IMG/VR virus record: IMGVR_UViG_3300022744_000102
Location: 1 to 22,836 of that record
Origin: a virus
Length of the DNA: 22,836 bases
Strand: one strand, 5' to 3'
The position numbers were made by a program, and so were the translations under genes. Below, one piece after another: positions 794 through 14,800 of this stretch. The first letter of the stretch is position 1; each line of letters starts with the position of its first letter. The notes under the pieces are model-generated. The model had not been told where the DNA came from, ran no database searches, and was given only the letters and a program-made list of their open reading frames with translations.

Positions 794-822
794 TTGAATA
801 GAGTTTTCTTATGACGTACCAT
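794..822 (+). promoter_or_regulatory. Promoter-like element upstream of portal
   Basis: TTGAAT (794-799) and TACCAT (817-822) are separated by 17 bases, the ideal sigma-70 spacing. The -10 box matches TATAAT at only four of six positions and has no extended -10. A matching element with the same spacing lies at 9719-9747 before the tail tube gene. The two agree at 22 of 30 aligned positions, including the spacer block TTTTCTTAT. Conservation of the spacer suggests recognition beyond plain sigma-70, for example by a phage-modified polymerase, but that is inference. Confidence 0.45.
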
Positions 823-850
823 TGCAGGGAATCTACTCTGCAATGGTGCG
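815..850 (+). promoter_or_regulatory. Long inverted repeat before portal start
   Basis: Arms at 815-827 and 838-850 pair over 13 positions (ten perfect inner pairs with core ACCATTGCAG / CTGCAATGGT, then one G-T wobble and two more pairs) around a 10-base centre. It overlaps the candidate -10 box and ends two bases before the ATG at 853. It has no T-run, so it is not a standard terminator. It could be an operator for a DNA-binding protein or an mRNA hairpin affecting portal translation. Confidence 0.6.
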
Positions 851-852
851 CC

Positions 853-2376
853 ATGCCAATCCTCGAAACTCTGCGTAAATACTTCGGGGGTGTCGAGCGG
901 GAAGCTGCTTCCGCCCTACCTCCGCAAGCTCCTCCGAAAGTACGTCCGGGGGCGCGGGCTTTGCCGGCCTATCTGACAACGGCAAAGCCGAATCCTCAGC
1001 AGCCAATTCCCCGCTCTGATCGGCGACTTGCCAATCAGGACGTACTGAATTACCGGAATGGGGCCGATACCCGGACAGTGATTCGGGATTTCGCACACTC
1101 CAGTCCTGACCTGTCCGCTGCACTGTGGGCATACCTCCGGGTGGGTATTCCGTCTGAATATACCGCTATCGCCTGTTCGGCGGTGGATGGGACCATTGAC
1201 GTCCCCGCAACGACCCTCCTTCAGCAGATCATTACCCGGATGGATACTCTGAACCCCTATGAAGAAGGGTTCAGCACCACCCAGAGCCTGAAGTCTTTGA
1301 GTGAGAGCCTTGCCAAAGAGATGCTTCTGTACGGGTCAATGGCTGCAGAGCTGGTTCTGGACAAGTCTCGTCTCCCGCTCAAGATTCAGCCGATCAGCGT
1401 AACTTCTGTGCAGTTCCGTCCGGATGGTACGAGCCTCAAGCCTTTCCAGAAGGTGGGGCAGGATGAGTTTGACCTGGACCTGCCGACCTTCTTCATGCTC
1501 AATCTGGACCAGGACTTGAAGGAAGCCTACTCGTCCAGCCCGTTCGAGACTGCGATCAAACCTGTCCTCTTCAAAGAGGACTTCGCCCAAGACCTGCACA
1601 AGATCATCAAGAAGGTCATCCACCCGCGCCAGAAGGTGAAGGTGGATGAGACGATGTTCCGCAAATTCATGAGCCAGGAAGCCCAGGTTGATGAGACGGT
1701 AGCGCGGGCCGAGATGCTGGCCCTGATCTCGGAGATCGAGAACCAGATCAATGGACTCAACCCTGAAGATGCTCTGGTCTACTTCGATACGATGGACTTT
1801 GAGGTGGATAACCCATCCAACGGCAATCTTGCCAATGAGTACGGAGTTCTCCAGGACATCAGTAATAGCCGCATCACCACTGGTGCAAAGACAATGGGCA
1901 CCATCCTCGGCTTCCAGGGCGGCAGCAGTAACATTGCCTCGTCAGAGACTATGCTGTTTGTGAAGTCGGCCAATGGGGCAGTCAAGGACAAGCTGGACCA
2001 GCTCTACAGCCGTATCTTTACCCTTGCCTTGCGGCTGTTCGGCCTTGATGTGTTTGTGCGTTTCCGCTATGCCGACATTGACCTGAGACCTCAGGCCGAT
2101 CTTGCCGCTTTCAGGCAGACCCAACAGATGATGATCTTGGAGCAGCTCAGCTTTGGACTGATTACCGATGAGGAAGCCTGCCTGAAACTGACCGGGAAGT
2201 TGCCACCTTCCGGGTATGTGCCAAAGTCAGGGACGATGTTCCACCAGGGCAACCCAGCCCAGGCAGCGGGAACACAGGAGCCGACCAATAGTGGTTCTAC
2301 TCTCAACCAGAACCTGAATGGGGATACTCCTGCAGTGGGAAGAGGTCAAAATAAGAAAAATTCTGGAGCCACATAA
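853..2376 (+). CDS. Portal protein
   Basis: This 507-residue protein has the size and sequence character of phage portals. These form the dodecameric ring at the head vertex through which DNA is packaged and ejected. The region from about residue 320 (FEVDNPSNG, then SRITTGAKTMGTILG) to the segment LITDEEACLKLTGKLPPSGYV resembles the stem and C-terminal part of portals, followed by a low-complexity tail rich in Gln, Asn and Gly. Position ahead of the protease/scaffold and capsid genes fits. I chose the ATG at 853 (MPILETLRKYFGG). An in-frame ATG at 811 would add 14 residues, but it lies upstream of the likely transcription start and its added residues are encoded by the inverted repeat. Neither start has a good ribosome binding site. 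Confidence 0.85.
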   Translation: MPILETLRKYFGGVEREAASALPPQAPPKVRPGARALPAYLTTAKPNPQQPIPRSDRRLANQDVLNYRNGADTRTVIRDFAHSSPDLSAALWAYLRVGIPSEYTAIACSAVDGTIDVPATTLLQQIITRMDTLNPYEEGFSTTQSLKSLSESLAKEMLLYGSMAAELVLDKSRLPLKIQPISVTSVQFRPDGTSLKPFQKVGQDEFDLDLPTFFMLNLDQDLKEAYSSSPFETAIKPVLFKEDFAQDLHKIIKKVIHPRQKVKVDETMFRKFMSQEAQVDETVARAEMLALISEIENQINGLNPEDALVYFDTMDFEVDNPSNGNLANEYGVLQDISNSRITTGAKTMGTILGFQGGSSNIASSETMLFVKSANGAVKDKLDQLYSRIFTLALRLFGLDVFVRFRYADIDLRPQADLAAFRQTQQMMILEQLSFGLITDEEACLKLTGKLPPSGYVPKSGTMFHQGNPAQAAGTQEPTNSGSTLNQNLNGDTPAVGRGQNKKNSGAT

Positions 2377-2387
2377 CGGAGAGGCAG

Positions 2388-2843
2388 ATGACTACACTAA
2401 AACATGAGGTAGAGGATTTTTATCGGACTGGGATGCGTTTGTTGATGGGCAGTGATCTACACGGGGTAAGGCTGCTATTGGCAGTAGCAGAGACGGTATG
2501 GATGATTACCCTGATCTGGCCTGGGGATTCCTTTTCCCGTCCGACCTATCAGGTCATGAGTATGGTTATGTCCGAACCTGCCTGGGCACTTGTGTTCGCC
2601 ATGACTTCCGCCTGCCAGTGGAGCATTTTGTTTTCTGGCAAATACCATGACCGACTTGCTGTGATTTTTGCCGCATGGAATAGCACGTTATGGTGGTTCG
2701 TGGTTGTCTGTATGTATACTTCAATTTCTCCCCCGCCGGCAGCTATATCCGGGGAATTCTCCCTCGCTGTGGGTGCATCCTGGGTATGGATGCGGTCTGG
2801 GTATTGCTTTCGATTAGAAGAAAAGAATGGGAAGGTACAGTGA
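2388..2843 (+). CDS. Multi-pass membrane protein, possible holin
   Basis: The 151-residue product has four hydrophobic stretches at about residues 27-44, 56-82, 88-110 and 118-135, several rich in Trp. The C-terminal tail is short and charged (RLEEKNGKVQ). There is no cleavable signal peptide. The start has a strong GGAGAGG site five bases or so upstream and lies 11 bases after the portal stop. It is followed by a one-helix coiled-coil protein and an endolysin that lacks an export signal, so it is the best holin candidate in the window, letting the endolysin reach the cell wall. That role rests on context and topology only. Similar Trp-rich four-helix proteins in other phages are often left as hypothetical membrane proteins. 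Confidence 0.7.
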   Translation: MTTLKHEVEDFYRTGMRLLMGSDLHGVRLLLAVAETVWMITLIWPGDSFSRPTYQVMSMVMSEPAWALVFAMTSACQWSILFSGKYHDRLAVIFAAWNSTLWWFVVVCMYTSISPPPAAISGEFSLAVGASWVWMRSGYCFRLEEKNGKVQ

Positions 2844-2844
2844 C

Positions 2845-3192
2845 ATGACAGAAGATGCTCTGATGACTGCGCTAGGGGGTGCTGGTGGGGTGAGTGTGGT
2901 TGTGTACCTCGCTAGGTTTTTGATGAAGCAGGTTACATCAGGAATTGGGGAGGCACGGTCTGAGAACGCTTACGGGGATGTGATCCAGAGCCTGCGTTCG
3001 GAGCTTGAACGTGTGAGCAGCCGAGTGGAGAACCTTGAGGGTCGGGTGACTTCTTTGATGAACCGGCTGGTGGATGTCCGGGGGCATGCCTTGGAGGCAT
3101 TCCAGATTGTTACTTCTACCTACCCGCTTACTGATGAGGCAAGGGCGAAGATTCAAAAGTGCCTTACTTCCATTATAAAGGACGACCTATGA
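2845..3192 (+). CDS. N-anchored coiled-coil protein, possible inner spanin or second holin
   Basis: The 115-residue protein has one hydrophobic segment near the N terminus (about residues 8-27, containing GGAGGVSVVVYLARFLM). A heptad-like stretch follows at about 45-85 with SLRSELERVSSRVENLEGRV. This N-in anchor plus coiled coil is the layout of inner-membrane spanins (Rz type), although some small holin-like proteins share it. I saw no overlapping lipoprotein gene of Rz1 type in the other forward frames. The ATG at 2845 has GGAAGG nine bases upstream and begins one base after the previous stop. An ATG at 2827 would add six residues. Its stop overlaps the endolysin start as ATGA, so the two are probably translationally coupled. 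Confidence 0.65.
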   Translation: MTEDALMTALGGAGGVSVVVYLARFLMKQVTSGIGEARSENAYGDVIQSLRSELERVSSRVENLEGRVTSLMNRLVDVRGHALEAFQIVTSTYPLTDEARAKIQKCLTSIIKDDL

Positions 3193-3725
3193 GAGTTACG
3201 GCACAGCAGGTCCAGCTTTCTGTAGGCTGCTCTGCTAGCTTGGCAGAGATTATGGTTGAGCCGCTTAACCTTACTTTTGAGCGGTTTCAGATTGATACCC
3301 CCAAAAGGGTCGCGGCTTTTTTAGCCCAGGTGGGCCATGAGAGTGGTGGCTTCAAGTATATGAGAGAAATCTGGGGTCCGACCCCGGCACAGTCCCGGTA
3401 TGAGGGTCGTGTGGACCTTGGCAATACCTTTCCCGGAGACGGCAAGCGGTATATGGGCCGGGGCCTGATCCAGATCACGGGACGCCACAACTACCTGAAA
3501 GTTTCTGAGGCCCTTGGAGTGGATTTTATTACCTCACCTGAAGCCCTGGAAAGCCCGCTCTACGCTTGCCTGAGTGCTGGGTGGTACTGGAACTCTAGGC
3601 ACCTTAACGATTACGCTGATGAGATGGACTGCCTGACCGTTACCAAAAAGATTAACGGGGGTACGAACGGTTTGGTGGATCGCAATAAGCGGTACGACAA
3701 GTCGTGCCGGGTTTTTGGAGTCTGA
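3189..3725 (+). CDS. Endolysin, glycoside hydrolase family 19 type
   Basis: A 178-residue lysozyme/chitinase-class hydrolase expected to cut the glycan strands of peptidoglycan at the end of infection. Family 19 features are visible in order: FLAQVGHESGGF with the likely catalytic Glu at residue 51, RYMGRGLIQITGRHNY in the substrate groove, and KINGGTNGLVDRNKRY near the C terminus. The length is usual for single-domain phage members. There is no signal peptide or separate wall-binding domain, so release would depend on a holin. The ATG at 3189 has AAGGA six bases upstream and overlaps the preceding stop (ATGA). A longer upstream reading would only extend into the previous gene. Its place between portal and head protease is unusual. 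Confidence 0.9.
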   Translation: MRVTAQQVQLSVGCSASLAEIMVEPLNLTFERFQIDTPKRVAAFLAQVGHESGGFKYMREIWGPTPAQSRYEGRVDLGNTFPGDGKRYMGRGLIQITGRHNYLKVSEALGVDFITSPEALESPLYACLSAGWYWNSRHLNDYADEMDCLTVTKKINGGTNGLVDRNKRYDKSCRVFGV

Positions 3726-3726
3726 C

Positions 3727-4050
3727 ATGGATGAGGCAACTAAGTACGTCAAGGGGCCTAACGATGTCCTTGACTATATCCTAGACCTGACCCTATTTCT
3801 TGGCGACGATACGGTGATTACTGCTTCGGCGGTGGAGGCTGTTGGAGTGGTCGTGGATAGCGTCGATGTCAACCCTATTCCTCTTAATCTCAATAACGAA
3901 ATCCCGGTGGACACCGGCAAAGCTGTGATTGTGTGGCTGTCCGGAGGTAATGCCGGGAGTCATGGGAAGGTAGTTATCCGGGTCAATACCCAAGGCGGTA
4001 GGCAGAAGGATATTGCCTATCCGGTTACCGTAACAAACAACTATAGGTAA
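3727..4050 (+). CDS. Small beta-rich phage protein (fibre/tail-adaptor-like)
   Basis: A 107-residue protein beginning MDEATKYVKGPNDVLDY. It contains the pattern DYxLDLTxFLGDDT near residues 14-28 and, later, VIVWLSGGNAG followed by a GGRQKDIAYPV segment. This matches a recurrent small phage family with the layout PNAVLDY...WLG-D-TI...VWLSGG-AG...GGR-D. I remember that family being annotated as structural or fibre-tail adaptor, but I could not check this. The predicted character is a single immunoglobulin-like beta domain with no membrane segment. The ATG at 3727 has TTGGAG six bases upstream; a TTG at 3715 is less likely. It may partner the repeat protein at 1-747 or decorate the virion. Confidence 0.6.
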   Translation: MDEATKYVKGPNDVLDYILDLTLFLGDDTVITASAVEAVGVVVDSVDVNPIPLNLNNEIPVDTGKAVIVWLSGGNAGSHGKVVIRVNTQGGRQKDIAYPVTVTNNYR

Positions 4051-4055
4051 GAGAT

Positions 4056-5498
4056 ATGAATATCAACGGTAGTGAGATTTGGGCCGGGACAGAGGAAAGC
4101 TATCAGACCCACCTTAAGGGTGAAGAAGCTAAGGTTGCTCGCATGTCCTCGGGAGAAGCCTTTAAGCAGGACCAAGAAGAGGACAAACCTCCTCGCCTGC
4201 TCGAAGTCCAAGATGGAATTGCTAACATCTCGATTCATGGTTCCCTGAATAATAGCTCGGATTCCTGGTGGAATGATTACATCGGCGCGACAGGGTATCC
4301 TGAAATTCGGGATGCTATGGTGTCTGCGGCGAATGATCCTGCAGTCAAGCACATTATCTTGGACATCAATTCTGGGGGTGGAACGGTCAGTGGTGTGAGT
4401 GACACCGCTAAATTGATCCGCACCATCAACGATAAGGTGAAGCCGGTTACAGCGTTTACCGATGGTTCCATGTATTCCGCTGCCTATTGGTTGGGTTCTT
4501 CCGCTGGCGAAGTTCATGCCAGCGAAGGGGCTGGGGTGGGCTCGATTGGCGTGATCGCTACACATATGGAGCGGTCGGCCATGCTGAAGGAAGCAGGGAT
4601 CGGAGTTACGGTGGTGCGGGCGGGCAAGTACAAGGCCCTTGCGAATGGCGTGGAGAAACTGAGCGAGGAGGGGAAAGCTCAGATTCAGGCTGGCGTGGAT
4701 GCAGCCTACAAGATTTTTGTTAGCCATGTGGCGGACATGCGTGACAAGTCCTACGAGTACGCAGACCAACATATGGCTCAGGGTCAGGAGTTCTTCGGCC
4801 AGAAAGCAGCCGATGTCGGGCTGGTCGATTCCATTACCACGTTTGATTCGGTGGTAGGCGAAATTAAGAAAAAATTTATGGACGGATCAAATAATCTAAT
4901 GGATAATCGCGCTAGACAGGTCTCGGGCCTGCGTGTCGAAAATGGAGATTCAATGATGAGTAAGAAAGTCCTGGACGAAGCCGCTATCGCTGCCCTGGCC
5001 TCTGGTGCGGGCGTCAGTGCGAGCGTCGAAGAGTCCGCAGAAGAGGTCGCTGGCGCTGCTGAGGCTGGCGAGAAGGGTGAGCAGGCTTCGGCCAGCACTG
5101 CGGCTGCAGAAGTTGACACTTCCGCTGCCATGCTCAAAGTTACAACCGACCAGCTCGCCGCAACCAATGCGGAGCTGCTGACTGCCCGCTTGGCCCTCGC
5201 CAAGCTGGAAGACAAACTGAAGGAAACGGTTGAGGCCATGTCTCCCCTGAAGGAGATCGCGGCCAAGGCTGTGAACAACATGCGTATTGCACTGAATACC
5301 CAAACCCTTGATCTGAGCGCCATGCAATCGGCTCAGCTTGTGGCTGAGTACAACAGTACCCTGAGCATGTTCCAGGCCAACTTTAAGGCAGGTGGTATTT
5401 CTGCTGGCGACGCGGATAAGTCCACCAAGAAAGTGGAAACCATCGACCCCAAGTTTAAGGCCCAGGTGCGTGCCACTGGCCTGAGCGCAATCAAGTAA
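4056..5498 (+). CDS. Prohead protease (S49/SppA-like) fused to scaffold
   Basis: This 480-residue protein joins a serine protease of peptidase family S49 (lambda gpC type) to a C-terminal scaffolding region. The catalytic pair is visible: Ser141 in DGSMYSAAYWLGSS and Lys193 in RAGKYKALANG. Their 52-residue spacing equals that of the Ser147/Lys199 dyad in Bacillus SppA. An Asp-Ile-Asn-Ser-Gly-Gly-Gly turn precedes them, as is usual in the family. From about residue 270 the sequence turns Ala- and Glu-rich with coiled-coil character, as expected for scaffold. It would process scaffold, and perhaps other head proteins, before DNA packaging. The start at 4056 follows the previous stop by five bases and has only a weak GAGA site. 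Confidence 0.9.
   Translation: MNINGSEIWAGTEESYQTHLKGEEAKVARMSSGEAFKQDQEEDKPPRLLEVQDGIANISIHGSLNNSSDSWWNDYIGATGYPEIRDAMVSAANDPAVKHIILDINSGGGTVSGVSDTAKLIRTINDKVKPVTAFTDGSMYSAAYWLGSSAGEVHASEGAGVGSIGVIATHMERSAMLKEAGIGVTVVRAGKYKALANGVEKLSEEGKAQIQAGVDAAYKIFVSHVADMRDKSYEYADQHMAQGQEFFGQKAADVGLVDSITTFDSVVGEIKKKFMDGSNNLMDNRARQVSGLRVENGDSMMSKKVLDEAAIAALASGAGVSASVEESAEEVAGAAEAGEKGEQASASTAAAEVDTSAAMLKVTTDQLAATNAELLTARLALAKLEDKLKETVEAMSPLKEIAAKAVNNMRIALNTQTLDLSAMQSAQLVAEYNSTLSMFQANFKAGGISAGDADKSTKKVETIDPKFKAQVRATGLSAIK
4953..5498 (+). CDS. Nested in-frame scaffold protein (lambda Nu3-like)
   Basis: Within the protease gene, GGAG at 4944-4947 precedes two consecutive in-frame ATG codons at 4953 and 4956 by five and eight bases. 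This site is stronger than the one for the full-length protein. Initiation here would give a 180-181 residue protein beginning MMSKKVLDEAAIAALASG, made only of the Ala/Glu-rich part and a helical segment near TTDQLAATNAELLTARL. In lambda, gene Nu3 sits in the same way inside gene C and supplies most of the scaffold around which the capsid assembles. The arrangement and ribosome site are seen directly; expression is inferred. Confidence 0.7.
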   Translation: MMSKKVLDEAAIAALASGAGVSASVEESAEEVAGAAEAGEKGEQASASTAAAEVDTSAAMLKVTTDQLAATNAELLTARLALAKLEDKLKETVEAMSPLKEIAAKAVNNMRIALNTQTLDLSAMQSAQLVAEYNSTLSMFQANFKAGGISAGDADKSTKKVETIDPKFKAQVRATGLSAIK

Positions 5499-5508
5499 GG
5501 AGATCAGC

Positions 5509-5985
5509 ATGGCTAAGTTTATGATGCAAGAGCTGGTGGGGGTCGAACCGATCACCGCCCGTCTGGGTGCCGGTTCCGGTGCCGCTAACAATGTGGACAC
5601 TAATGAGATTGGCAAGATCGTCAAGCTCGTGGGTGAGTCCCGCTTCAACCTCGCTGCTGCCGGTGACCAGATTGAGGGCTTCATCACTGCGGTGGAGTCC
5701 GCCACCCTTGATGGCTTCACCATTGGTGCTGTTCAGCAGGAGGATCGCAAGACGGTGACCTTCGATGGTCTCCAGGGTACCCCCGGAACTGGCACCATCG
5801 CGGTTGGTGACTTTGTGGTTGCAGGTACCGTGGTGGCTAAGGGCACTGCCCTATCGGCCCCGGTTAAGGTATGCAAGGCGACTACTCAAACGGGTATGTA
5901 CTTTGCTTGGCGTGTGGTTAGCCTTGGTTCCGCTGGTACAGGTGCTGTGGGCACCGTCGGTGTGATCGAGCGCGTTAACGGTTAA
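5509..5985 (+). CDS. Head decoration protein
   Basis: A 158-residue protein between protease/scaffold and major capsid genes, the place of lambda D. It is rich in Gly, Ala, Val and Thr with alternating hydrophobic residues (TIGAVQQEDRKTVTFDG, GTIAVGDFVVAGTVVAKG), as expected for a small beta-fold that caps and stabilises the expanded capsid. No catalytic motif or membrane segment is seen. It has a strong AAGGAG site shortly upstream and codons of the highly expressed type shared with the capsid gene. It is longer than lambda D (about 110 residues). The assignment rests mainly on position and character. Confidence 0.7.
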   Translation: MAKFMMQELVGVEPITARLGAGSGAANNVDTNEIGKIVKLVGESRFNLAAAGDQIEGFITAVESATLDGFTIGAVQQEDRKTVTFDGLQGTPGTGTIAVGDFVVAGTVVAKGTALSAPVKVCKATTQTGMYFAWRVVSLGSAGTGAVGTVGVIERVNG

Positions 5986-6001
5986 TTCAGGGAGAAACAC
6001 A

Positions 6002-7177
6002 ATGGCGAAGTTTTATGATGCAGAAGGTGCTCTCCGGGAAGTTGAAGTCTCCCTGGACACCATCCGTGAAGCCGGCAACAACAATATGTCGGTGCGTGAT
6101 TACGTCAATACGGTCTATCAGACCAACGCTGAGGCGTATGGTGACGCGTTCTCTCAGTTCTGTGCCTCTGAGGGTATCGTGCTGGTTCCTCAGAAGCGTT
6201 CCGGCATCCGTGCCCCGAGCCTTGATGCGGCCCTGAACGGTCGTCCGACGCTGGAGGCTGGCGCTATTGTTCGCCAACCGAGCCAGCAGGCCCGGACCCT
6301 GCTGATGCCGGCTATCGGTGCGCTGGTCGAGGACAAGCTGCTGGGCGATTTCGAGACCAATGCAATGGTCTTTGACAAGATGATCGCTCTGGATGATACC
6401 ATCACCGACGAGTGGCTGCTGTGGCCGGAAGCCAACTATGCGGGTCCGGAAGCCGGTCGTTCTCAGGGTGTGGCTCAGTTGGCGAAGCCGAACACGATGC
6501 TGACCCTGACTACCAGCGAGCGTCAGATCAAGGTTCCGACCTATGCTTTGGGTATCGAGTGGTCCGAGCAGGCGACGAAGTACCTGAACCTGGACTTCAT
6601 CTCCCTGTCCATCGCCCGTCAGGTCCTGGTCGAGCGCAATGAACGCGCCGGTCAGAACATCCTTGCGATGCTGAACGGTGACGTGGATGTGGGTCAGTCG
6701 GCCCTGTCGGCCATCTCCGGTAAGGTCAAGACTGCGCTCTCGCTGGACTCCACCGCTACCGCTGGCCTGACTCAGAAGGCTTGGATGCTGTGGCTGTACG
6801 GTGCTGCAAACCGGCGTATCGACTACGTCATCACCGATATTCTGGGTGCGCTGGCTATCGAGAACCGTGTTGGCAAGCCTATCGTTACCAATGACGATGG
6901 TACCAGCCCGCGTATCAACTCCACTGCGGTCGTGGCTAACCCGGCTTGGAACTCGGAAGTTCAGGTGTTCATCATGCCGCAGAACTCTGGCTGGCCGGCG
7001 AATACGATCATGGGTGTGGATAGCCGCTTCGCCATGCACCGTGTCACTTCGACCAATGCCTCGTACCAAGCTCAGGAAGACTTTGTTCTCCGTCGTGGCA
7101 GCGCCATGCGCTTCGACTACGGTAGTCTGACCCGCCGCCTGTATGATGATGCGTTTGATGTCCTGACCTTCGCCTAA
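6002..7177 (+). CDS. Major capsid protein
   Basis: The 391-residue product occupies the capsid slot and ends with RRGSAMRFDYGSLTRRLYDD, a C-terminal pattern typical of HK97-fold capsid proteins in one group of siphophages. The N-terminal 90 residues (MAKFYDAEGALREVEVSLDT onward) look like a separate arm or scaffold-interacting region, followed by a domain with DYVITDILGALAIENRVGKPIV. Codon use is strongly biased toward C- and G-ending codons, as in highly expressed genes. A GGGAGA site lies about six bases upstream. An intrinsic terminator follows 17 bases after the stop, consistent with the end of a strongly transcribed head unit. I see no clear protease cleavage site. Confidence 0.9.
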   Translation: MAKFYDAEGALREVEVSLDTIREAGNNNMSVRDYVNTVYQTNAEAYGDAFSQFCASEGIVLVPQKRSGIRAPSLDAALNGRPTLEAGAIVRQPSQQARTLLMPAIGALVEDKLLGDFETNAMVFDKMIALDDTITDEWLLWPEANYAGPEAGRSQGVAQLAKPNTMLTLTTSERQIKVPTYALGIEWSEQATKYLNLDFISLSIARQVLVERNERAGQNILAMLNGDVDVGQSALSAISGKVKTALSLDSTATAGLTQKAWMLWLYGAANRRIDYVITDILGALAIENRVGKPIVTNDDGTSPRINSTAVVANPAWNSEVQVFIMPQNSGWPANTIMGVDSRFAMHRVTSTNASYQAQEDFVLRRGSAMRFDYGSLTRRLYDDAFDVLTFA

Positions 7178-7194
7178 TCGGGGCATGGTCTGAG

Positions 7195-7226
7195 AGCAAG
7201 CCCCTCCCCGAGAGGGGCTTGCTTTT
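7195..7226 (+). terminator. Intrinsic terminator after capsid gene
   Basis: AGCAAGCCCCT (7195-7205) pairs perfectly with AGGGGCTTGCT (7213-7223) around the 7-base loop CCCCGAG, and the stem runs into a TTTT tract at 7223-7226. It is the only structure in the window with both a GC-rich perfect stem and a T-run. It probably reduces transcription from the head genes into the connector and tail genes. Confidence 0.88.
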
Positions 7227-7252
7227 GATGCCAAAAGATTCAGGAGTATTAA

Positions 7253-7453
7253 ATGAAGGTAGTGGAAAAAACTGTAGTAGCCAAAGCGCCTGTGGAGCGC
7301 CGGGCAGTCACCTCGGGTTCCACTTATACGTTAGTTCATTTGTTCACTAACAAGGTCTTTTCCAGAGTGCCTCAGACAGTTACTACTGAGGATGATAACG
7401 ACTGGTTTAAAGCTCAAGTAGCACAGGGAAAGGTAGAGTATGTTGGTAAGTAA
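7253..7453 (+). CDS. Small unknown protein after capsid gene
   Basis: A 66-residue protein, MKVVEKTVVAKAPVERRAVT onward, mixed in charge, with no membrane segment or motif that I recognise. The real-gene case is good: AGGAG sits seven bases before the ATG, it is the first gene after the terminator, and its last 14 bases overlap the next gene. In other siphophages this slot between capsid and connector often holds a small head-completion or unknown protein. I do not assign a function. Confidence 0.6.
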   Translation: MKVVEKTVVAKAPVERRAVTSGSTYTLVHLFTNKVFSRVPQTVTTEDDNDWFKAQVAQGKVEYVGK

Positions 7454-7937
7454 CTACACATCTCCTTCCGATATTCGGGCAGCGTTGGGCATCTCTGAAG
7501 ATGAGCTGGACGACGCCACTGTGGAGCTTCGGCTGTACGAGGACAGGCTCGTGTCGGACCTTGAGGATATTAGTCCGGACCTGGACCCCACCTATTCCCT
7601 AACTGTTGTAAAAGTAGAAGCAGACATGACGGATGCTGAGCTACGTTTTCTTCGTTATGCTCGCCTCTTTGCCACTTATTCTGTTGCGCGTGCACTTACT
7701 GTCAGCCTGCCCATGTTCAGCCCTAAAAGCATTGAAGACGGGAAAGCAAAGATGGACAGGTTTATGGACCCGTACCGGGACACGATCAAGCTCGTGAACT
7801 CCGAGTTTGAGAAGTGGAAGGAACGGCTCGCCGCCGCTTTTATTGCTCTGGGTATTTCTTCTGGAGCAGAGGTTAAGGCTCCACGCAGATACTTCGGGAT
7901 CATCAACCCGGCGAGCAACCCGATTACTGGAACTTGA
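7440..7937 (+). CDS. Head-tail connector (adaptor) protein
   Basis: A 165-residue protein whose N-terminal part (YTSPSDIRAALGISEDELDD) resembles the start of ring-forming connector or adaptor proteins of the HK97 gp6 type, which attach beneath the portal. The helical middle (AELRFLRYARLFATYSVARA) and a conserved-looking aromatic/basic region fit that all-helical fold. It overlaps the previous gene by 14 bases, and GGTAGAG just upstream may serve as ribosome site. The next gene starts one base after its stop. Context (after capsid, before neck and tail terminator genes) supports the call; the sequence evidence alone is moderate. Confidence 0.6.
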   Translation: MLVSNYTSPSDIRAALGISEDELDDATVELRLYEDRLVSDLEDISPDLDPTYSLTVVKVEADMTDAELRFLRYARLFATYSVARALTVSLPMFSPKSIEDGKAKMDRFMDPYRDTIKLVNSEFEKWKERLAAAFIALGISSGAEVKAPRRYFGIINPASNPITGT

Positions 7938-7938
7938 T

Positions 7939-8772
7939 ATGCGCCTGAAGAACGTCTCCAAGTATTTTGATACCACTGTGGCCCTAGATGGGTACTCAGG
8001 GAGGAAGGCGTTCAAGTGCCAGCTTGAGCCCTTGGATATGTTCAAGACTGAGGGGACGAAGATAAAGGTTAGAAACTTGTCCTCGTCCTCTGGTGTGCGG
8101 GTCCCGACCAGAGGCGTTATCTCAATCGGGCCGCAGAGGTATCTGATTACGGATTCAAGCCTGGACCATTGGGACGGGGAAGCTATCCGTGCTAGATACG
8201 TGCTTCAGGGGGCCGATGATCTAATCCTGGTCCGGACCATTCAGGAGACCCTTGAAGATACTCCTGGGTTTTCTGCTTACGCTTCTGTTGACTTTAATAA
8301 GTACAGCACTGATGAGCGTGACAACTCCAATTTCCAGAACCAGTACCATATCTTTTTCGCAGGTAGTGAGATTATCCCTGTCAACTCCATCCTGACTTCC
8401 AGTTCCGGTAAGTCATTCTTTGGCCGGACCAGCTATAAGACTCCGGCAGGCTTGATTGATGTATTTTCAGACGAGCTTCCCTCTCCAGTCACTGACTCGG
8501 CTACCTTCAGTGCTCGCACTTACAACCCGATCACGGATGACTATATGGAAACTAACCTGACAGTGTCCTGTATCGGTATGCGGTGGCAGGAGCACTTTGA
8601 GCGGTTGAACAAATCGACAACTCCTTACGAGTCCGGTGATATTCAACTGCTGGTGCCGTTGTCGGTGACCCCCAAGCCCAGCGATACTCTGCTTTTTCGT
8701 GGGACTAAATGGACCATTCTTAGCTGTATTCAGGAAGACGGGTATTGGTCCCTGCATGTTAGGCTGGTATGA
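7939..8772 (+). CDS. Unknown head-tail connection protein, 277 residues
   Basis: I do not recognise a named family. The start at 7939 follows the previous stop by one base and has GGAA six bases upstream; the reading frame is open further upstream only as overlap with the connector gene. The predicted protein is beta-rich and soluble. The C-terminal part (PSDTLLFRGTKWTILSCIQE, ending HVRLV) resembles the small beta-barrel of head-tail stopper proteins. An N-terminal segment (RGVISIGPQRYLITDSSLDH) has a similar feel, so two related barrels are possible. At 277 residues it is much longer than usual stoppers (about 100-130). It ends in an ATGA overlap with the next gene. Confidence 0.6.
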   Translation: MRLKNVSKYFDTTVALDGYSGRKAFKCQLEPLDMFKTEGTKIKVRNLSSSSGVRVPTRGVISIGPQRYLITDSSLDHWDGEAIRARYVLQGADDLILVRTIQETLEDTPGFSAYASVDFNKYSTDERDNSNFQNQYHIFFAGSEIIPVNSILTSSSGKSFFGRTSYKTPAGLIDVFSDELPSPVTDSATFSARTYNPITDDYMETNLTVSCIGMRWQEHFERLNKSTTPYESGDIQLLVPLSVTPKPSDTLLFRGTKWTILSCIQEDGYWSLHVRLV

Positions 8773-9317
8773 GACTCCGGAAATCCCAGAGGGGGTCCTG
8801 GAGTAACGTGATTTCTCGTTACCTGACTGACGGGGAGAGCATCCCGGTCAAGAAGGCAAGGGAGATCATGAGGGACGCACTTGAGTATGCGGCCTCCCAT
8901 TCTCCGCAGGCTACCGGGACATTTGCCTCTAACTGGAGGTTGTCTATCGGAGCACCGAAACCGGGGACAGCTACCCACGACGATAGTCACCTCACAGGTG
9001 ATCGTATCAAGTGGAACCGTAAGATGGGGATGCCCCATTTGGCAAACAGTGTTTGGAAGTTTGAGGGTAACGTTGAGGCCATCAATAAAGCATTGAATAG
9101 CCCAGGGTCTAGGCTGTCAGCTTTACGCCTTGGTCAGAAGGTGTATCTTTCTACTTCTGCCACCAACTCTACAACGGGTGAAAAATACGACTGGGATGTG
9201 GAAGATGGAACTATAAAGTTCCGCGATGTAAACCCATCTGCTAAACACTGGGGCGGGAAAATCGCCCACATGACCTCCATCTATATCCGAAGAAAGTATT
9301 CAGGGGCCGTCAAATGA
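8769..9317 (+). CDS. Neck / tail-completion protein (HK97 gp10-like)
   Basis: A 182-residue basic protein that carries the motif SPQATGTFASNWRLSIG near residues 45-60. This corresponds to the T-G-x-L/F-x-x-S/N-W signature of the HK97 gp10 / lambda gpZ-type tail-completion family. These proteins act at the head-proximal end of the tail. The start overlaps the previous stop as ATGA, and its own stop overlaps the tail terminator start in the same way. That suggests coupled translation of the neck genes. A segment rich in Ser and Thr follows the motif, and the C terminus is basic (SIYIRRKYSGAVK). Confidence 0.72.
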   Translation: MRLRKSQRGSWSNVISRYLTDGESIPVKKAREIMRDALEYAASHSPQATGTFASNWRLSIGAPKPGTATHDDSHLTGDRIKWNRKMGMPHLANSVWKFEGNVEAINKALNSPGSRLSALRLGQKVYLSTSATNSTTGEKYDWDVEDGTIKFRDVNPSAKHWGGKIAHMTSIYIRRKYSGAVK

Positions 9318-9715
9318 CAACCTACGTAGAAGCCAGGGACGCTATCGTTTCGCATATCGACGCCAACTTTTCTGGTATTCCTGTTTTTTATGAGAACACC
9401 TTGGAGGTTGATCTTAATACTGTGGAAGACCGCTTTATCCGGGTCGAGGTCGAGTTCTCTGGCGCAAGTCAGGCTTCTATGGGGGATAACGCGTTGGATC
9501 GTACTTACGGGTTCATCACATATCGGGTCTTCACCAAGCAAGGAAGGGGAACCAGGGCCACCCTTGAGGTCATGGACACCCTTAGAGATGTTGCCAAAAC
9601 CATGACCACTGACAAGGTTCAGTGCGAGTCTGTGAGACCCGGAAAGGTTGAATCGAAGTCCGGATGGGAGTGTCGAGACCTGCTGGTTCCGTTTTGGTTT
9701 GATAGACTCCGTTGA
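9314..9715 (+). CDS. Tail terminator protein (lambda gpU-like)
   Basis: The 133-residue product has the size and layout of tail terminators: an N-terminal helix (YVEARDAIVSHIDANFSGIP) followed by strands such as RFIRVEVEFSGASQ and a final RDLLVPFWFDRLR. Tail terminators form a hexameric ring that stops growth of the tail tube and docks to the head. Its position after the neck gene and before the tail tube gene is standard. The start is inside an ATGA overlap. It ends the run of tightly overlapping connector genes, with a 75-base gap carrying a promoter-like element after it. Confidence 0.75.
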   Translation: MTTYVEARDAIVSHIDANFSGIPVFYENTLEVDLNTVEDRFIRVEVEFSGASQASMGDNALDRTYGFITYRVFTKQGRGTRATLEVMDTLRDVAKTMTTDKVQCESVRPGKVESKSGWECRDLLVPFWFDRLR

Positions 9716-9718
9716 TTA

Positions 9719-9747
9719 TTGCATAAGTTTTTCTTATAGAGTACCCT
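9719..9747 (+). promoter_or_regulatory. Promoter-like element upstream of tail tube gene
   Basis: TTGCAT (9719-9724) and TACCCT (9742-9747) are 17 bases apart and match the element before the portal gene in boxes, spacing and spacer block (TTTTCTTAT). The -10 box is a poor sigma-70 match (three of six). It lies in one of only four noncoding gaps longer than 70 bases and precedes a gene needed in very high amount. The downstream leader has a weak GCCC/GGGC stem (9756-9769) and a GGAGA ribosome site at 9778-9782. Confidence 0.45.
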
Positions 9748-9790: not shown

Positions 9791-11005
9791 ATGACTCTTG
9801 CAACATCCAATCGCTCCCGGATTCGGTATATTAAGGAGTCCGCCTTTGGCGTGATTCCCACTTCCGGCAGCGTCCGCTCTCTGCGCTTCACAGGTGAATC
9901 CCTTGGCTTCACCTTCCAGACAACCACCTCGAAAGAGATTCGCTCTGACCGCCAAACCACCGACTTGACCCAGACGGGCGCTTCGGCCACGGGCAGCATC
10001 AACTTTGAACTCTCGTATGGCGAGTACGACCCGCTGTTTGAAGCCTTCCTGCAGAACACCTGGAGTGTGTTCGGCACGGGCGGCCTGGGTCCGGTCGGCC
10101 TTTCTGAAGTGGCCTCGGTCGGTACCTTCACCACCAGCACCCTGACTGCAGCGACGGCTACTTCGGGTGCGGGCATCTTCACCAATCTGGTCAAGGGCCA
10201 GTGGGTCAAGATCACCGGCTCCTCTATTTCGGCCAACAACAAGATCGTTCAGGTTTCTCGTACTGTTTCCCCGACCTCGACGGTAATCACTTTTGAAGGT
10301 ACTCCATTTACCGCTGGCGCGGGCGGCAGTGCTATCCAGATTTCTTCGTCCCGGCTTATCAACGGCACTTCGGAGTCGAGCTGGACCATCGAGCGTGGCC
10401 TTGAGGACGTGTCCCAGTTCTTCGCTTATCGTGGCATGAGCGCGGACAAGCTGAATCTGAAGTTTGCCTCGGGCACCATCACCGAAGGCAGCCTGGAGTT
10501 TATGGGCCGGGACTCGACCCGTGGCAATGCTACTCAGTTGACCGGCACCCTGGTTCCTTCCCTGTCCTACGACGTTCAGAACGCGGTCTCAGGCGTGGGT
10601 GATGTGCGGGAAGGCGGCTCTACGCTGACGGGTACTTTCATCAAGTCGGTGGACCTGAACCTGTCCAACAACCTGCGTGCGCGTGATGCAATTGGTGTGT
10701 TGGGTGCCGCATCGGTGGGTTCTGGTTCAATCTCGGTTACCGGCACCCTTGAGGTCTATCTGGCTGATGGCTCCATGTACCAGAAGTTTATCGATAACGT
10801 GGCCTCGTCCCTCTCGCTCTATACGGTGGATGGTGCAGGCAATGGCTACGTGATCGAGCTTCCGAAGCTCAAGTACAGCGATGCCAAGGTGAATAACGGC
10901 GGTCTGAATACTGACGTGATGCTCTCCATGCCGTTTACGGCTCTGGTCGATCCGGTGCTGGGCTATACGATCTCGCTGTGCCGTGTTGGTACCGCTCTCG
11001 TTTAA
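9791..11005 (+). CDS. Major tail tube protein
   Basis: A 404-residue protein beginning with the typical tube motif SRIRYIKESAFGVIPTSG, followed by LRFTGESLGF and a long pattern of beta strands. It is consistent with the Phage_tube_2-like major tail proteins that stack as rings around the tape measure. An apparent inserted beta domain occupies about residues 107-192 (from VGTFTTSTLTAATATSG to QISSSRLINGT); the tube fold then resumes with SSWTIERGLED. Codon bias is strong and resembles the capsid gene. GGAGA lies eight bases upstream of the ATG. It is transcriptionally separable from its neighbours: a promoter-like element lies upstream and a hairpin downstream. Confidence 0.88.
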   Translation: MTLATSNRSRIRYIKESAFGVIPTSGSVRSLRFTGESLGFTFQTTTSKEIRSDRQTTDLTQTGASATGSINFELSYGEYDPLFEAFLQNTWSVFGTGGLGPVGLSEVASVGTFTTSTLTAATATSGAGIFTNLVKGQWVKITGSSISANNKIVQVSRTVSPTSTVITFEGTPFTAGAGGSAIQISSSRLINGTSESSWTIERGLEDVSQFFAYRGMSADKLNLKFASGTITEGSLEFMGRDSTRGNATQLTGTLVPSLSYDVQNAVSGVGDVREGGSTLTGTFIKSVDLNLSNNLRARDAIGVLGAASVGSGSISVTGTLEVYLADGSMYQKFIDNVASSLSLYTVDGAGNGYVIELPKLKYSDAKVNNGGLNTDVMLSMPFTALVDPVLGYTISLCRVGTALV

Positions 11006-11016
11006 GTAGTTCCCGA

Positions 11017-11041
11017 TGGGCAGGCCGGGTAAGCCTGCCCA
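11017..11041 (+). terminator. Hairpin after tail tube gene, weak terminator or mRNA end
   Basis: TGGGCAGGC (11017-11025) pairs perfectly with GCCTGCCCA (11033-11041) around CGGGTAA, 12 bases after the tail tube stop. No T-run follows, so it is not a canonical intrinsic terminator. It may protect the 3' end of abundant tail tube mRNA or partly lower expression of the following genes. Confidence 0.5.
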
Positions 11042-11811: not shown

Positions 11812-14800
11812 GTGATAAACTTCAGCTAGACCTAGATACCAGTCAGGCACGGGACTCCATCAAGGAGCTGTTGACTCAGGTTAAGGCACTTGAGAGTACG
11901 TTTGACAATATCTCGGCTAAGAATCTGATCTCTCAATACGGAGGACTTCAATCCACCGCTGCTGCGCTTAAAAAAGAGATCGAAGGAATTAGCAAGATTG
12001 ATCTGTCCAGTGCTGGAGGTGTCAAGCAATTCAAGGAAAAGATCGCGGAGGCTGCAGCCAACGTTAAAAAGCTGTCTGGCGAGATGGCGCAGCAAGGACT
12101 TGCTACGGATAGAGCCAAGGCTGCTACGGTTTCCTATCGCGCTACTGTAGATGGGATTTCCCACTCCTTTAGGGAGTTGAGCTATCTTAGCAGTGACAGG
12201 GTTAAGACCCTTGCGGACCTTGAGGCAGGAGAGAAGTCCTACCGTAAAATAATTAGTGATGCTTCTAAGGATTATAGGGGCTACCTAAGGGATAACAGTG
12301 TCGCTTCTATTGAGGAGCGTAACGCTAACAAGGCTCGCATTAAGGCGTTTGAGGAGTATGAGAAGGCCCAAGCTAAAGCCGTTGAGACCTCAAAGAAAGC
12401 AGCGTGGGCTGCGGTAGAAGCGGATAGGGTTGCGGCTGCGTCCCAGGATAAGACAAACCGCAAACAACTAGAGGCCATACAGAAGAATTTGACTGTTGCT
12501 CAGGCCCAGGAAGACCGTAGGGTACACGCCAAGGCTAGAGCTGAAATCAAAACCTACGAGACGGATGAAGCTGAGAAGCAAAGTGCAGCTAAGGCTCGTA
12601 GTGTTCGCGGTGAATCTCAGGCGATGCAGATTGCTAGTGTTGATAGAGCCTCAGAACTTAAATCTGCCCGTGGCGATAGGAGCTTTGCACGAATCGCAGG
12701 TGCAGACCTTGCTGATGTAAAAAACCTTGAGAAGCTGGTTACCCATCTCCGTGCCGTTAAAGGTGAGATGGATTCGACTACGCGAAATATGGCTATTGAG
12801 CAGTACGGCAAGGATGCCGTAATTGCGACAGCCAATCTTAAGGCTCTTGAGCAACAGTTGAAGCAGGTCCAGTCGGCCAATGATCTTAGAAAGCAACAAG
12901 ACAAGACCGGGGCGGATACTGTAGCTGTTATGCGCCGCCAACAGGCCGAGCGCAACCTGAGCATGGGCAACGCTTTTGGGTTTGCAAGGGATGCAGCGGA
13001 TCAGTACACTAACTTGGGTAAGAGGATATTTGCAGCTAAGGAACTGGTGGCTCAGTTTGGAGAGGCTGAAACCCGCGCATTCCTTGGCAAGAATGCCTAC
13101 CTGGTTGATAAGATCAGTGATCTTAATAACTACACCAAGGCAGTTAAGTCTGCTACCGCTGCTTCCAGTGATGCTCAGAATAACGCCTCTTTCACCTTCG
13201 CCGGGGCTGACTCCAAGGTAAGAACAGTTAGGAAGATTCAGTACCTGCAGTCTGAGGGTGCTAGCCTCTCAGAGTTGAAGGATAGGTATGGAAGTATAGC
13301 AGTCGGAGACGCTAACTCCGGAGAAAGCATTAGAGCCCTTCACAGGGAATATGAGAGACTTGACTCTACGGTACGCAAAGCCTCTAAAGGCTTGAAGGAA
13401 GTATCCAATGCCAAGAATGAAGCCCACGCTGCGGCACGAGGTCTAGCTGGTTCTCTGGGGCAGCTTTGGACCACCTACGGCTCCATTGTTCCGCTCTTGG
13501 CTGGAGCCGCTGTTGGTGGAGCACTCAAGGAGTTAGTCACCATTGGAGCGAAGGTTGAGGATCAACTAACGCTCATGGAAGCCGTTGGTGGGGGGGCTAA
13601 GGTTTCAATGACCGCTCTGGCAGCGGCAACGAAAGATTCTGTATTTTCGTTTGCTGAGGCGACCAGCGCCCTCCGTGTCCTAGTCCAAGCCGGTCAGACT
13701 ACTCAGCAGGCCTTGCAGGTCCTTCCCCAGATTCTCAAGGTTTCTGCCATTGGGGAAATCGAGTTAGGGAAAGCTGCTCTGACCGTTGCCTCCATGATGG
13801 AATCTTTTAATTTCAGCATCGGAGAGGCTTCACGAGTAACTAACTCTATGGCAGCAGCAGCGGCCCGGTCCCCAACCAGTATGGGGGAGATGATGGAGGC
13901 TATGAAGCAGGCCTCTGCTATCTCCTCTCAGTACAAGGTCAGTATCGAGGAGACTTCGGCTGCCTTTTCAATCCTAGCTAAGAGGGGAATTGAAGGTTCT
14001 GCAGCCGGTACCTCCTTCAGAAACCTGGTAGCTGAGTTATCCGCTCCCACTACCAAGAAGGCGGCTGAGGCTATGCAGCAGCTTGGTCTTTCAATGTTCA
14101 ATAAATCCGGGAATCTTAACCCCTTAGTGGAGAACCTTGAGCAGATTGCAGTTGTGGCTAAGTCCATGTCCGAAGAAGACCGGATTAAGTGGTTTGAGAC
14201 TTTTACTAATAACCGGAGCGCAAAGTCTTTGGATGCCCTGGTTATGAACATGAAGGATTACAGAGACGCCATTAAAGAAGTTACATTGGCTCAAGAAGGC
14301 TTAGGGTTCGTCACCGAAACTAACGCTGCGAGGATGATGACGACCCAGGGGCAGTGGAAGCAGTTGGGCACCGATATTGAGGTTGTTTTTGCAGACGTAT
14401 TCAACACCCTTCAACCGACCCTGATGGTATTTATCAATACCCTCCGTGATGCTGTAAGCTCCAACGGGTTTAAGGAGTCGATGATTAAGCTGGCTGAAAC
14501 TCTAGCCAGTGTTACTAAGTTTGCAATGGAGAACGCCACCGCTATTGGGTATCTTATAGCAACCCTGGCTGGGCGCAGCGTTATCATGGCTGCCGCAGGG
14601 GCCTTTATCTACCTTGGTACTGCTATTGGAAGTCTCGGAGTTTTAGGTGGGGTATCCTCCTTATTTGCTTCCTTTGGTACCCTCCTCGCTAACCCAGTTG
14701 TAGCTGCAATTGCAGGGGCTGCGCTAGGCATCGGGGCTCTGGTGGCTTACCTTAATAGCACTAAGTCCGCTTCTACTGAAGCAGCAGAGGCTGTCAGTGT

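Follow-up and report, generated by a model that had tools for sequence, protein, structure and literature searches.

Matched promoter-like elements ahead of the portal and tail tube genes of an uncultured phage and its relatives: a probable promoter pair with a candidate operator and a predicted portal leader hairpin

Introduction

Promoters of the sigma70 family have the consensus TTGACA-17-TATAAT. Mu C-dependent and T4 MotA-dependent promoters combine weak hexamers with a conserved non-sigma element, and the Mu C dyad, TTAT-N6-ATAA, is located further upstream. In phage P22, the Arc operator in the ant promoter is a dyad with a 5-bp centre between -35 and -10. Promoters of the MerR type hold a dyad within an over-long spacer of 19-20 bp.

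A separate mode of control operates on gene e of phage T4, for which the excerpts of PMC3014915 describe read-through RNA that hides the ribosome-binding site and promoter-started RNA that lacks the hairpin arm responsible.

The stretch of DNA analysed here, which we call the window, is an IMG/VR virus record, 22,836 bases long, in which we found no end repeats; records of this kind are often fragments. Its genes are in a lambda-like order on the + strand, and those named through PHROGs are portal, endolysin, head maturation protease, major capsid, tail terminator, tail tube (phrog_290), tail chaperones and minor tail proteins. A preliminary description had pointed to two similar promoter-like elements, TTGAATAGAGTTTTCTTATGACGTACCAT at 794-822 and TTGCATAAGTTTTTCTTATAGAGTACCCT at 9719-9747. 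Both are present at these positions and are identical to each other at 21/29 and 22/30 places, TTTTCTTAT included. The features to which we refer are as follows.

794-822, + strand: probable portal promoter, TTGAAT, 17-bp spacer, TACCAT; orthologous sites in relatives G001, G002, G008, L092 and L093
798-812, + strand: spacer dyad of the portal site, putative operator, ATAG-N7-TTAT, imperfect relative to the consensus ATAA-N7-TTAT
810-855, + strand: predicted read-through RNA hairpin, in which the -10 segment pairs with the portal Shine-Dalgarno sequence (845-848) and start codon (853-855)
829, + strand: predicted +1 position for the portal unit, G here and A in the 13 other sites
853-2376, + strand: portal protein gene (phrog_3753)
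6002-7177, + strand: major capsid protein gene (phrog_3922)
7196-7226, + strand: intrinsic-terminator-like hairpin (7196-7222) and TTTT, 3' of the capsid gene
9314-9715, + strand: tail terminator gene (phrog_179), stop codon immediately 5' of the tube-side site
9719-9747, + strand: probable tail-tube promoter, TTGCAT, 17-bp spacer, TACCCT
9723-9737, + strand: spacer dyad of the tube site, putative operator, ATAAG-N5-CTTAT
9754, + strand: predicted +1 position for the tail-tube unit, A
9791-11005, + strand: tail tube gene (phrog_290)
11018-11040, + strand: G+C-rich hairpin, without a T run, 3' of the tube gene

Alignment of relatives indicates that the portal gene most likely starts at the ATG at 853 rather than at the first in-frame ATG at 811, a start also supported by a conserved GGTGCGCC(C)RTG, and the noncoding gap before the gene is therefore 748-852. 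Upstream of it, 1-747 is an open frame with a repeat unit of ~66 bp (22 residues, SAHTLSGASATQGN-like) that had no PHROG match. The segment 2388-3725, between portal and head protease genes and within the head unit, contains the endolysin gene and two small frames. A DNA search of the whole window against named phages gave no match, and a literature search found no published report of the motif.

Materials and methods

Relatives were collected by scanning IMG/VR and GTDB genomes with the portal, tube and capsid proteins; the portal proteins of these loci are up to 73 percent identical. G000 is the window, G001 is L081, G008 is L094, G009 is L119, G010 is L120, and L128 is phage JWF. Sites of the element were found by eye first and then by matrix, with a leave-one-contig-out scan of 22 sequences. 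For spacing tests we used 100-nt stretches 3' of the tail terminator gene, of which 21 were non-redundant (25 before removal of near-copies). The automatic start finder missed the portal gene starts in G001, G002, G008 and G011 and put that of L092 in the wrong place; nine portal starts were assigned manually or taken as the nearest start codon.

Results

Within the window, the likeness of the two elements is not remarkable by itself, and 22/30 matches are common by chance. We counted 41 overlapping pairs of 30-mers with at least 22 identities in positions 748-22836, and 2 to 20 such pairs (mean 10.7) in 10 dinucleotide shuffles of the same segment; when the comparison was limited to the four long gaps, 22/30 was reached in 0/1000 shuffles. 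Because the evidence from the window is barely above chance, we have made the case from relatives. The leave-one-contig-out matrix gave the two window sites scores of 32.5 and 23.0. The next best score, 11.3, belongs to the tube site on the opposite strand, owing to the dyad nature of that site, and was followed by 5.5, in agreement with the earlier remark that the window has no third copy.

IMG/VR was also searched with fixed patterns. The pattern TGATCCTTGYATAAN7TTAT was present in 5 stretches on 4 contigs; the matches from the window's phage family were L093 and three copies in G008, and those in L151 and L152, which are unrelated to the family, are near-identical to each other round the site. 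The pattern TTGCATAARN5YTTATN4TACCNT had 1 match, also unrelated. The core pattern TTTTCTTATNNNGTACCNT occurred in 63 stretches, 0/63 with the full 29-letter pattern, which fits chance, and it was dropped.

We observed the element at 14 sites in 9 contigs, the window's two included, with 6 before portal genes and 8 at tail tube genes, several of them related by descent and not fully independent. Their consensus is TTGnATAA-N7-TTAT-N4-TAnnnT. Besides the window, the portal-side sites are those of the five relatives listed above, and the element lies directly 3' of the tail terminator gene in G002, G004, G008, G009, G010, L092 and L124. In the leave-one-contig-out scan, the top match was at the portal or tube position in 12/22 sequences, and the portal and tube sites held ranks 1 and 2 of the contig in G000, G002, G008 and L092. 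Twelve sites scored >20, compared with a best reversed-matrix score anywhere of 11.6, and the tube copy of G008, which was outside every training set, scored 30.3; L124 is a weak member (7.2). The top match was elsewhere in the remaining 10/22, namely G006, G011, G012, G014, G015, G016, L070 and the named phages Lumi, SHOU24 and JWF, none of these three having its top match at portal or tube.

Conservation is concentrated in the site itself: for 12 sites, near-identical G008 copies being left out, mean pairwise identity was 0.61 in the site, 0.37 in the 40 nt upstream and 0.28 in the 40 nt downstream. The portal and tube copies within one genome are alike at 16-21/29 positions. Information is high in the columns of TTG-AT, ATAA, TTAT and TA---T, in a TGAT upstream of these and in a single column, 36, downstream. 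Blocks of ATA and TGAT at columns -16 to -2 from the TTG, together with ATAA and TTAT, recur with a period of ~10-12 bp, as though they might be touched on one helix face.

The matrix scan found no convincing further copies in the 54-kb G001 or the 56-kb G009, and the element seems to be confined to two places, portal and tube. The preliminary description had counted a lack of further copies in the genome against its proposal, and this applies by half: no convincing extra copies appeared in the large relatives, yet the element is clearly conserved between phages. We therefore regard it as an element of two sites rather than a late promoter used across the genome. The tube genes behind the sites of G002, L092 and G009 have no detectable similarity to that of the window, from which it follows that the site outlived exchange of the gene it serves.

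Several of the loci have peculiarities of their own. On the minus strand of G008 (23761-26082), an inserted 725-codon frame separates the working portal promoter from a third, degenerate copy, which shares its flanks but has a changed -10. In G001, an HNH-endonuclease-like gene (1528-3435, + strand) points away from the portal promoter in a divergent arrangement, and the earliest start codon that it could use overlaps the promoter site. The structural module and both promoter copies are also present on L092 (CALMKG010000174.1), a contig of 12.5 kb that was binned as uncultured Propionibacterium but is probably of phage origin.

We examined promoter geometry with the caveat that sites had been partly picked by eye before the spacing and +1 tests. 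TTGnnn-17-TAnnnT was present in 11/21 stretches 3' of the tail terminator gene, those before unrelated tube genes included, with 0.39 expected. Spacers of 14, 15, 16, 20 and 21 gave 0 matches, 18 gave 1, 19 gave 3 and 13 gave 4, these last being L072-L075, in which the matches of L072-L074 fall within a common end of coding sequence. The same pattern was found 3' of other genes as follows: protease 0/17, decoration 0/17, g11 0/19, g12 0/19, portal 2/13 and capsid 2/18. Column 36, the predicted +1 position seven bases past the -10, was A in 13/14 sites and purine in 14/14, the exception to A being the G of the window's portal site; the next highest A count among 21 downstream columns was 7. The tube regions of G003, G006, L070 and L103, which had no part in defining the dyad motif, are missing the spacer dyad but retain both hexamers at 17-bp spacing together with the +1 A (4/4).

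The preliminary description had also argued that the spacer is conserved beyond the needs of plain sigma-70, and this is borne out: the hexamers match the sigma70 consensus at only 8/12 (portal) and 6/12 (tube) positions, and a sigma-70 scan with a threshold of 9/12 listed neither window site. The poor match weakens no claim other than that the sites depend on plain sigma70. Because the same element occupies the same two places in relatives, even where the tail tube gene has been swapped, we consider the sites very likely to be promoters of sigma70 geometry, with +1 in the window near 829 and 9754. Thus the promoter reading of the preliminary description gains conserved places, exact 17-bp spacing and a +1 A, from which we infer promoter activity; its adjectives 'late' and 'activator-dependent' go further than these observations, and late timing of the two units is plausible.

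The outer pairs of ATAA-N7-TTAT are near-invariant, with a double change from A-T to G-C at one pair in G010 and L124. Covariation across the dyad was not above shuffles (61/500 as high), and the dyad was accordingly rejected as an RNA hairpin. A protein dimer is favoured by this result: the dyad most likely binds a dimeric regulator, and regulation through it is, on balance, probable. The four tube promoters that keep their hexamers without the dyad indicate that the arrangement can do without it.

The regulator is itself something that we infer from the dyad. Pfam searches with small frames, 69 from G001 and 39 from G009, named no DNA-binding regulator and no member of the C, Mor or MotA families. 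Sigma70 region 2 (PF04542) was absent from six contigs, which are possibly fragments (control found in 10/14), and PF00940 (T7-like RNA polymerase) had 0 matches in 6 contigs that may likewise be fragments, but its control was silent throughout, so that the lack of matches does not show absence. With PF03869 (Arc), 1 phage contig, G011, gave a weak match of 1.4e-4, under the cut-off, with G001 and G002 negative; PF01402 (ribbon-helix-helix) matched, of the phage contigs scanned, in G008 only, with G000, G001 and G002 negative. Phage JWF has an Arc-like DNA-binding gene (15716-15916, minus strand), antisense in the gap just before its tube-position gene, and at the matching place phage Lumi has a 274-base gap. 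L129 (MW202657) is a distant relative that comes from Manatee Spring; directly before its portal gene, and overlapping it, is a gene (12249-12836) that carries the annotation RNA polymerase sigma factor cnrH.

RNA that reads through the portal-side site of the window is predicted to form a 15-bp stem at 810-855 (z from -4.85 to -5.6 for the different stretches folded), and the promoter's own transcript, starting at 829, would contain no more of the 5' arm than its final base. In the window and in 2/5 other portal sites (G001 and G002), the sequences of the -10 segment and the portal Shine-Dalgarno region are complementary; with segments that were picked after the first folds had been seen, duplexes as strong occurred in 0, 3 and 1 of 2000 shuffles for G000, G001 and G002, respectively. 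In all three, the phage's own pair was stronger than every swapped pair, by only 0.5 kcal/mol in the case of G001 against the L092 and G008 swaps. Such preference for the own partner, though the letters differ, is what compensating change would look like. Predicted openness of the Shine-Dalgarno sequence was 0.00, 0.18 and 0.10 in the read-through RNAs of G000, G001 and G002 and 0.42, 0.39 and 0.37 in the promoter-started RNAs.

The duplex test detected no such pairing in L092, L093 or G008, and predicted openness had no clear rise there. In G011 the pairing was matched by 0/2000 shuffles; as its promoter score (6.7) is near noise and the segments were chosen after the fold was seen, we have not counted it. 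On the tube side, only G002 of 6 had -10/Shine-Dalgarno pairing below 1 percent of shuffles, and G009 was the single case in which a tube leader folded better than its shuffles. In a survey for which the start finder lost or misplaced some starts, mean folding z was lowest at portal starts (-1.51, n=14), with other genes at -0.58 to +0.46. Masking of the portal Shine-Dalgarno sequence in read-through RNA is, by these predicted folds, plausible.

Hairpins of -17 kcal/mol or lower were present 3' of the capsid gene in 12/14 contigs (not G003 or G009), often with a T run, and hairpins of -13 kcal/mol or lower 3' of the tube gene in 7/10, both being counts without a shuffled control. A consensus terminator scan did not list the window's capsid hairpin (7196-7222) and TTTT. 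The depositors of phage JWF annotated terminators 3' of its capsid gene and 3' of its tube-position gene. Terminator-like hairpins after the capsid gene would account for a second promoter before the tube gene. The division into head and tail units made by the preliminary description is thus roughly right, except that the second unit begins at the tube gene: the connector genes are upstream of it, 3' of the capsid hairpin and 5' of the tube promoter. In the simplest reading of the order, a first promoter serves the genes from portal to capsid, a partial terminator follows, and the connectors are reached by read-through; a second promoter then serves the tube gene, behind which an attenuating hairpin precedes the remaining tail genes.

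Discussion

We think it quite probable that a matched promoter pair with a regulated dyad, a capsid terminator and portal masking together form one explanation of these observations. RNA polymerase with sigma70-type geometry would read both sites through TTGnAT, 17 bp, TAnnnT and an A seven bases on. The portal-side promoter would start the portal-to-capsid unit, the terminator-like hairpin behind the capsid gene would lower read-through, and the tube-side promoter would restart transcription at the tail tube gene, whose product is needed in large amounts. A dimeric regulator on ATAA-N7-TTAT, between the hexamers, would time both units together. In the window and two relatives, the -10 segment in read-through RNA would pair with the portal Shine-Dalgarno region and start codon, and promoter-started transcripts, without the 5' arm, would leave portal freer to be translated.

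Among other explanations, the one that we take most seriously, without thinking it the probable one, is that these are ordinary weak sigma70 promoters with no regulator, their spacers being shared by descent or by copying from site to site. This would accommodate both the lack of a recognised regulator and the four tube regions (G003, G006, L070 and L103) that keep hexamers, 17-bp spacing and +1 A without the dyad. However, across the 14 sites from 9 contigs few columns are better conserved than those of the dyad (5-8 and 16-19), while the spacer centre varies, and the hexamers themselves fit the consensus poorly. Mere chance likeness of two A+T-rich gaps, suggested by the ease with which a window of this size yields 22/30 matches, is refuted by the relatives, which keep the element at both places, and we give it practically no weight.

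Two further readings set the promoter function aside. The element might be a recombination linker at module borders, kept to guide exchange of head and tail modules; the tube site does persist before a tube gene of a different family, and the degenerate and portal copies of G008 do flank an inserted frame. A linker does not need fixed 17-bp spacing or a conserved +1 base, though, the portal and tube copies within a genome are only 16-21/29 alike, and four tube sites keep the promoter features without the rest, which makes this reading improbable. We judge it very unlikely that the element is an RNA element (leader hairpin or processing site) of read-through messages with only a coincidental likeness to promoters: the strong hairpin at the window's portal site speaks for it, but the window's tube copy folds no better than shuffles, the dyad arms are without significant covariation, and 17-bp spacing and +1 A are DNA features of promoters.

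Returning to the regulated promoter pair, we offer a stronger version tentatively and with some doubt: that one dedicated operator-promoter times both units and is kept at the head/tail border despite tail swap, and that the portal -10 doubles as an anti-Shine-Dalgarno sequence, so that only promoter-started, timed messages would make portal protein. Portal protein made too early or in too large an amount would be expected to be harmful. At the least, a match noted by eye has led to a predicted two-promoter plan, with exact start sites, for the structural genes of uncultured phages.

In relation to known systems, the sites resemble bacterial and phage promoters of the sigma70 family in having hexamers 17 bp apart and an A at +1 seven bases past the second, and differ from them in the additional ATAA-N7-TTAT of the spacer, the TGAT just upstream and the 8/12 and 6/12 hexamers. 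Their 17-bp spacer (14/14 sites) sets them apart from MerR-type promoters. Weak hexamers plus a conserved non-sigma element are shared with the Mu C and T4 MotA promoters; unlike that of Mu C, the dyad here is ATAA-N7-TTAT and lies between the hexamers, and the scans of G001 and G009 recognised none of these activator families. Like the Arc operator of P22, the dyad has a 5-bp centre between the hexamers, so that a repressor could block polymerase; an Arc-like gene was recognised in the distant JWF but not in the window's closest relatives. The T4-type late promoter -10 element, TATAAATA, is absent from the 14 sites.

The closest parallel for the portal leader is lysozyme gene e of T4, whose late promoters, as the excerpts of PMC3014915 present them, lie within the 5' arm of a leader hairpin, as predicted here. 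The layout in which a promoter occupies the 5' arm of a hairpin pairing the ribosome-binding site is found in the window, G001 and G002. Compared with gene e as described in those excerpts, the gene concerned is portal and not lysozyme, no TATAAATA late promoter is involved, and the arrangement is predicted, in some relatives only. What would be new is the complementarity of a -10 segment to the portal Shine-Dalgarno region, by analogy with gene e. We regard the whole as a well-supported, modestly novel variation on known phage promoter logic, in which the portal leader would extend the gene e principle from lysis to capsid assembly.
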